DNA of 33,718 nt from Pseudomonadota bacterium (lineage in GTDB: Bacteria; Bdellovibrionota_B; Oligoflexia; Oligoflexales; CAIYRB01). The notes beneath the pieces are model-generated. The model worked only from the letters and a program-made list of their open reading frames with translations, made no database searches and had not been told where the DNA came from. The stretch's first letter is position 1. Each line of letters opens with the position of its first letter. Positions 26,091 through 27,490 of this stretch are shown here, one piece after another. The position numbers and the translations under genes are program-made. Where the stretch lies: positions 1 through 33,718 of the forward strand of contig JAPLFY010000014.1 of assembly GCA_026390435.1 (NCBI GenBank), in the 5' to 3' direction.

Positions 26091-27032
26091 ATGATACTAG
26101 ACCAGACCACGGTCGATAGATTTGCCGAAAATCTCAGATCTCGCGGTAAGCAGCCAGCGACTGTCGAATCTTACTGTCGCGACGCCCAGGGGTTCCTGGG
26201 GTATCTTCAGCGCTGCCGCCTAAGCCCAACTCAGATCGAACCAGTCACTTTAATAGCATACCAAGAATACCTTCGCGGAGATTTAACGGAACGGGATAAT
26301 TCCATTCGACGCACGGTTATTGGCATTCGGCAGTTTTTTCGATTTTTGCACGAATCGAAATTATTACATGGCTCACCCTTTGACAGTGTGCCCATCCCTC
26401 AGCGGGATGACCGAATTCCTAAGAGTCTTTTACCTGAAGCGATAGACCGCATACTGACTCAAGCACAACGCGGGGCACCCCCTTGTAAAGGTGCCCGGGA
26501 CGCAGCCCTAGTTGCTCTGCTTGCATTCGAAGGAATCAAGGCGAATGAGCTGATTGCTCTTCGTTGGCGAGATTTGCTCTCGGAGACCGATACAAGCAGC
26601 CTGCACGTTGGAGGCTCAAGGGCTAGATCCATCCGCCTTGGGACAAAATCTCATGAGCTACTGCTTAATTATCGGAAGCATTATCAGTTAATTGACCATC
26701 CAGTTATCAAAAACAGCCCCGATAAGTACATGTTTTTGGCGTTCAAGGGTAGGGATGCCAGTTTTCCATTGCCCAGTATCACACGCCACGGTCTAAAATT
26801 CGTTTTATACGAACTTGGCGAGAAGGTGGGCATCGACAGCCTCAATACTGAGCAGCTTCGCCATTTTGCAGTGACTCATTTGTTAGCAGAAGGCAAAGCT
26901 CCTGACGAAATCATGACTCACCTCGGTCTACGGCGACTTGGCAATATAGCAAAACACTTGGCGGCTGAGCCGTTGGCGTCACTGGCGAGTGATGCTGATA
27001 ATTCCGACACATCGGATCCTGGTCAAATTTGA
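26091..27032 (+). CDS. Tyrosine-recombinase-fold protein lacking most catalytic residues
   Basis: The protein, 313 residues, is colinear with XerC/XerD recombinases: an N-terminal SAM-like core-binding domain (about 5-95) and a C-terminal catalytic-type domain (105-295). Aligning by eye, the first catalytic Arg (family GLRVSEL) is Lys150 in EGIKANEL; the His of HxLRH is Glu254 in TEQLRH; the LGH histidine is Leu280 in HLGLRR; the nucleophilic Tyr, nine residues later, is His289 in IAKH. Only Arg257 and the next His258 are retained. The fold looks intact and the frame is open, so this is a diverged DNA-binding or structural protein rather than a decayed gene. It diverges from the kinase operon and its stop overlaps the tadA start. 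AAGGA lies 11 bases upstream of the ATG. Function unknown. Confidence 0.8.
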   Translation: MILDQTTVDRFAENLRSRGKQPATVESYCRDAQGFLGYLQRCRLSPTQIEPVTLIAYQEYLRGDLTERDNSIRRTVIGIRQFFRFLHESKLLHGSPFDSVPIPQRDDRIPKSLLPEAIDRILTQAQRGAPPCKGARDAALVALLAFEGIKANELIALRWRDLLSETDTSSLHVGGSRARSIRLGTKSHELLLNYRKHYQLIDHPVIKNSPDKYMFLAFKGRDASFPLPSITRHGLKFVLYELGEKVGIDSLNTEQLRHFAVTHLLAEGKAPDEIMTHLGLRRLGNIAKHLAAEPLASLASDADNSDTSDPGQI

Positions 27033-27490
27033 GTTCAACTGCACTCACCGATGAATACTGGATGCAACAAGCCCTAGGCCTTGCCCGAAAAGCTGCGGCA
27101 CTGGGGGAAGTACCCGTTGGTGCCTTGGTCATTAAAGACGATCAAGTGATTGGTACGGGTAGTAATGCACGCGAGCAACAACAGGACGCTATTCGCCATG
27201 CCGAAATCGATGCTATTTCCGCAGCCTGCAAACATCTTGGTAGTTGGCGACTAACAGGATGCAGCCTCGTAGTTACGCTCGAACCCTGCCTGATGTGTGC
27301 TGGGGCAATCTACCAGGCCCGCATGAGCAGAGTCGTTTTTGGTACCATGGACCCCAAAGCTGGAGCCATGGGTAGTCTTTACAGCGTCCATGAAGACACT
27401 CGGCTAAACCACCGATTACCTGTGGTTAGTGGAGTAATGGCGGCGGATTGCGCTACTATTCTTAGGGATTTTTTCAAAGCTAGGCGATAA
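27029..27490 (+). CDS. tadA: tRNA-specific adenosine deaminase
   Basis: TadA, 153 residues, converts A34 to inosine in tRNA-Arg(ACG), an essential step for reading CGN codons. The zinc-dependent deaminase motifs are complete: HAE (His57, proton-shuttle Glu59) and PCLMC (Cys87, Cys90). EYWMQQALGLARKAA is the family N-terminus. The probable start is a TTG overlapping the upstream stop as TTGA; the next in-frame ATG would lose the conserved EYW before it. The overlap means translational coupling to the recombinase-like gene. It converges on the lipoprotein gene with only 15 bases between stops and no visible terminator. Confidence 0.93.
   Translation: MSSTALTDEYWMQQALGLARKAAALGEVPVGALVIKDDQVIGTGSNAREQQQDAIRHAEIDAISAACKHLGSWRLTGCSLVVTLEPCLMCAGAIYQARMSRVVFGTMDPKAGAMGSLYSVHEDTRLNHRLPVVSGVMAADCATILRDFFKARR

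Follow-up and report, generated by a model that had tools for sequence, protein, structure and literature searches.

An ancient, catalytically stripped Xer family of the Oligoflexia that probably acts in DNA binding without cleavage

SMC unloading by Bacillus subtilis XerD is not known to require recombination, and a streptococcal XerD-like protein (NF002685, PRK02436), which we take to be a XerD relative standing outside difSL recombination, presumably adjoins scpA-scpB. As cited in PMC12322038, it is site-specific DNA binding by B. subtilis XerD that unloads SMC at the terminus. A recombinase fold has also been turned into a DNA-binding repressor in MrpR (YopR), the master repressor of Bacillus phage SPbeta, which shows that the regulator route has been taken once (PMC10516654). 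Helix N of Xer enzymes docks on the partner protein, and XerA without helix N is blocked in recombination while retaining cleavage of suicide substrates (PMC3646895).

The xer-like gene described here lies in a window of 33,718 nucleotides, that is, the whole stretch of DNA that was analysed (contig JAPLFY010000014.1, order Oligoflexales, class Oligoflexia). An earlier note, made from the letters of this DNA, had proposed a complete reading frame for a XerC/XerD-like protein with an intact fold but a stripped active site, and both the frame and the fold hold up. The open reading frame runs over 313 amino acids without interruption, and its features are collected in Table 1. Against Pfam, the protein scored above the cut-off with PF00589 (Phage_integrase, 36.1 bits) and PF02899 (SAM-like N-terminal domain, 29.1 bits). 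The NCBIfam XerD model TIGR02225 matched with an E value of 1.4e-30 and 106.7 bits, short of its cut-off of 329.6, and TIGR02224 gave 87.2 bits against a cut-off of 335.15. The two-domain arrangement of core-binding and catalytic fold was found by Pfam, AlphaFold2 and Foldseek. The AlphaFold2 model, for which a 40-row alignment was the input, had a mean pLDDT of 93.1, and Foldseek matched it to XerA, Cre-DNA and XerH-DNA as the best folds and also to IntI4 and XerD; thus, the fold is considered intact. Within the core-binding domain, Thr24, Tyr28, Arg73, Arg74 and Pro103 are invariant in the family alignment. XerD (1a0p) was the top PDB sequence match of the family profile, with E = 8e-29. Another PDB record, 9i5v chain 14 (401 aa), is labelled ribosome-associated inhibitor RaiA, and its residues 8-274 align with the Xer profile, which suggests either a fusion of Xer with a hibernation factor or a merged record.

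Table 1. Features of the xer-like gene, its product and its immediate neighbours in the window
Feature	Position	Strand	Basis or remark
Divergent conserved protein, 245 aa	25246..25983	-	No Pfam or NCBIfam match
xer-like pseudo-recombinase gene, 313 aa	26091..27032 (including stop codon)	+	PF00589, PF02899 and TIGR02225 matches
Core-binding (SAM-like) domain, residues 1-105	26091..26405	+	Domain matches, alignment, model
Catalytic-fold domain, residues 106-292, active site replaced	26406..26966	+	Domain matches, model, fold search
Lys150 at XerD Arg148 (first catalytic Arg)	26538..26540	+	Lys in 40/40 family members
Gly174-Ser176 at XerD Lys172 (beta-hairpin catalytic Lys)	26610..26618	+	Alignment; column highly variable in family
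Arg232-His233-Gly234-Leu235-Lys236, recognition helix	26784..26798	+	Arg232, His233 and Lys236 each in 40/40
Glu254 at XerD catalytic His244	26850..26852	+	Glu in 38/40
Arg257 at XerD Arg247, sole catalytic-site residue retained	26859..26861	+	Arg in 40/40
Leu280 at XerD His270	26928..26930	+	Alignment
His289 at XerD nucleophile Tyr279	26955..26957	+	Alignment
Acidic low-confidence tail, residues 291-313, where recombinases have exchanged helix N	26961..27029	+	pLDDT about 62; alignment
tadA (tRNA adenosine deaminase)	27029..27490	+	Overlaps xer-like stop codon; next gene in most of the order

Catalytic positions were assigned by alignment with E. coli XerD, E. coli XerC and phage P1 Cre, using XerD numbering, and column counts were taken from 40 aligned orthologues of the order and its outgroups. 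Five of the six positions of the catalytic Arg-Lys-His-Arg-His/Trp-Tyr set are replaced in the protein, the second Arg being kept. This alignment bears out the four replacements named in the earlier note (Lys150, Glu254, Leu280 and His289), and the search for orthologues with like replacements that it had proposed returned Lys150 and Glu254 as fixed or nearly fixed states of the family. Its statement that only Arg257 and His258 remain stands for Arg257; position 258 is not among the six catalytic residues and varies (His in 26 and Asn in 10 of 40), and the hairpin Lys, which the note did not list, is lost as well. Position 280 is Leu in 30, Tyr in nine and Val in one of the 40 orthologues. The nucleophile column holds His in most order proteins (35 of 39) and Phe throughout the outgroup-family proteins (11 of 11); Asn, Val, Leu and Tyr occur there sporadically in the family alignment. 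The replacements are held to be beyond chance, because the XerD match is as strong as 1.4e-30 and identical replacements are fixed in orthologues.

A Tyr donated from another C-terminal position, which the earlier note had regarded as grounds for abandoning its reading, was ruled out, as the last Tyr of the protein is residue 240 and the C-terminal helices hence carry none. Only one orthologue, L023 of genome G025, has Tyr at the nucleophile column, and its other catalytic residues are absent. L023 terminates one residue past this Tyr and is the sole recombinase-family protein found in G025. Past the Tyr column, the tail measures between 1 and 33 aa among order proteins and is unconserved, so that a helix N for cyclic exchange is not evident in them.

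In length, two-domain fold, best profile and PDB match, single copy and conserved chromosomal setting, the protein resembles XerC/XerD (TIGR02224, TIGR02225). It differs from them in its catalytic residues, in scores far under the family cut-offs, in the lack of a conserved exchange helix and in that the canonical dif pattern shows no excess in 56 genomes. The likeness to MrpR lies in a recombinase fold without the catalytic set. However, MrpR is prophage-borne and keeps Lys169 and Tyr304, whereas the pseudo-recombinase is chromosomal, class-wide and without both, and the fixed Lys and Glu replacements belong to its own family. MrpR (8A0A) was absent from the PDB sequence matches to E = 1 and from the 50 fold matches listed. 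B. subtilis XerD, in contrast, is a full recombinase, and the likeness of the pseudo-recombinase to it is by analogy. The profile of the streptococcal XerD-like protein (NF002685/PRK02436) gave a weak match to 13 of 40 family members and none to the window protein at E <= 0.001; the xer-like gene of the window also differs in having no scpA-scpB neighbour.

Relatives were found by protein search in 52 of 56 related genomes, and a family profile search recovered orthologues in 53 of the 58 genomes of the class; a phylum-level search gave the identical 58 genomes. Four order genomes without the xer-like gene are also without the neighbouring ntrY, which suggests assembly gaps rather than true loss, and real loss in these genomes was set aside on that ground. 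None of the 40 aligned full-length proteins from the order and class has the full catalytic set, so orthologues that would mark the present copy as decaying were not met with. In a tree of 68 proteins (40 dead and 28 intact), the dead ones form one clade with support of 100/98, recovered in 100% of 200 bootstrap trees. The simplest reading of this tree, which is unrooted, is a single ancient catalytic loss before the split of the order from the outgroup. The dN/dS ratio against the nearest relative, G002, which is in two fragments, was 0.10 and 0.13; the pair L011-L012 gave 0.05, two further pairs 0.03, and L057-L058 0.008 with synonymous changes near saturation. The gene is thus under purifying selection (dN/dS 0.01-0.13), and strongly so; the earlier note had likewise supposed selection on it. 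An integrase of a mobile element was ruled out by housekeeping synteny; moreover, no relative was confirmed in viral contigs, and matches to phage and plasmid records were distant, at about 21-31% identity among the matches listed.

Several invariant residues of the family alignment, including Arg73, Arg74, Arg136, Arg179, Arg232, His233 and Lys236, would suit a DNA-contact surface. In the alignment, His233 stands opposite Cre Arg259, and Gln90 of Cre is the counterpart of Arg74; both Cre residues are DNA contacts. Intact Xers from the outgroup family differ at the recognition-helix positions, position 233 being variable among them. A recognition helix that is invariant in the pseudo-recombinase and different in intact Xers suggests that the former has a conserved DNA target; it is residue conservation that points to DNA binding here. 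The canonical gamma-proteobacterial type of dif pattern, allowing up to one mismatch, matched in 21 of 56 genomes, a reversed control pattern did so similarly, and a divergent site would escape this search; a dif site of this type was dropped for want of any excess over the control. A shared upstream operator was likewise dropped, since the divergent intergenic region upstream of the xer-like gene held no common motif in the seven close sequences compared (the window and six relatives).

The setting of the gene is largely constant in the order: ntrY is followed by the 245-aa gene and then, divergently, by the xer-like gene and tadA. This divergent pairing of the 245-aa gene with the xer-like gene is seen in most genomes of the order. 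The outgroup family has other neighbours, with ribD in place of tadA together with a kinase and others, and the neighbourhood was set aside as a guide to function as the two settings share no theme.

Other tyrosine recombinases were surveyed in the same genomes, the majority of which are drafts. Outgroup family f12 has two intact Xer paralogues of one type, about 340 and 380 aa long, which coexist with the pseudo-recombinase in 12 of 12 genomes searched. Clear orthologues of this pair were not found in the order, where the best match reached 119 bits versus 320-590 in most f12 genomes. The remaining tyrosine recombinases of the order occur sporadically and are confined to particular lineages, many of them on short contigs. 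Closely similar intact tyrosine recombinases of 286-331 aa, mostly on short contigs, occur as L001, L078 (G000:C104) and relatives in G004 and G005; this type, found in several genomes of the genus, is likely mobile. In G009, G017, G018, G020, G025 and G027, which are drafts of 82-93% completeness, the pseudo-recombinase alone matches PF00589 and the XerD profile. Being the sole tyrosine-recombinase-family protein found in these six order genomes, it is not simply the partner of an active Xer. The FtsK gamma domain was detected in 45 of 56 genomes, among them nearly all order genomes outside families f4 and f11; it was not found in either of the f4 genomes (G009 and G017) or in most of f11, and the pseudo-recombinase is kept there. 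The gene is retained where other tyrosine recombinases were not detected, and also where FtsK gamma was not, so that within what draft assemblies can reveal the protein appears to need neither of the two.

These data bear unequally on the functions that might be proposed. Loss of the active site would be expected if a former Xer recombinase gene were decaying into a pseudogene, yet full frames, dN/dS of 0.01-0.13, presence in 53 of 58 genomes, a single clade and fixed replacements rule this out, and we give it next to no credence. An unusual catalysis by Lys150, Glu254, Arg257 and His289, such as hydrolytic nicking, would draw on the first three being conserved to the degree of a catalytic site; however, the nucleophile column changes from His in the order to Phe in the outgroups and sporadically holds Asn, Val, Leu or Tyr, and a conserved metal-binding cluster is absent, which makes such an activity very improbable. 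Of the three roles offered in the earlier note, DNA binding or architecture fits best, while regulation of a true Xer enzyme is disfavoured. The latter would make the protein an accessory subunit on one arm of a dif-like site, an extreme form of XerC-XerD asymmetry, in the service of an active partner. Two-protein Xer systems are known (PMC5357621), an intact Xer pair stands alongside in all 12 f12 genomes searched, and FtsK gamma is widespread (45 of 56 genomes). Nevertheless, we consider this role improbable, given that the order keeps the pseudo-recombinase without clear orthologues of the f12 pair, in six genomes without any other tyrosine recombinase detected and, in f4 and the bulk of f11, with no FtsK gamma detected, and that the exchange helix is unconserved.

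A transcription regulator derived from a recombinase, binding operator repeats and repressing genes in the manner of MrpR, is a more serious contender that we still regard as unlikely. MrpR shares the fold, retains three of the seven catalytic residues, elutes as a monomer and binds DNA without recombination (PMC10516654), and the divergent arrangement of the xer-like gene and a conserved gene across the order is a layout common for a regulator and its target. Against this, no operator-like motif is common to the window and six relatives in the intergenic region between the two divergent genes, and the outgroup neighbours change while the recognition helix is invariant. A role as a chromosome landmark or in chromosome architecture, for example by limiting SMC or organising the terminus like B. 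subtilis XerD, is tentatively preferred to that of a regulator, although we would put it at somewhat under an even chance. The preference has two grounds: the recognition residues are fixed over class-level distances while the neighbours change, and B. subtilis XerD is cited in PMC12322038 as a sequence-specific SMC unloader.

Overall, the protein is probably an ancient Xer-derived pseudo-recombinase that acts as a non-cleaving, sequence-specific DNA-binding protein, a reading for which conservation of the presumed contact residues argues. Such a family would be old and vertically inherited, and would have kept from XerC/XerD the two-domain C-clamp together with the DNA-contacting elements while being unable to cleave and rejoin DNA. 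A conserved short DNA site may be bound by way of the helix with the invariant Arg73 and Arg74 and the helix with Arg232, His233 and Lys236. The fixed pocket of Lys150, Glu254 and Arg257 could clamp the backbone with no phosphotyrosine being formed, and the unconserved exchange helix N would favour a monomer or dimer over a cyclic tetramer.

Xer proteins are regarded as recombinases by definition, and the present family would be annotated so. Xer studies have left open how bacteria manage when dimer resolution cannot be detected in them (PMC2731167, PMC5357621). One speculative and rather doubtful answer is that the order as a whole lacks an active Xer of vertical descent and that the non-cutting descendant alone has been kept and marks a conserved chromosomal site, a purely architectural function (such as SMC release or FtsK arrest at the terminus) replacing dimer resolution. 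A class-wide Xer family that does not cut, and that is kept where active Xer is undetectable, would be a natural case of separation of function, and may serve to test whether some indispensable task of Xer proteins rests on DNA binding, apart from recombination.
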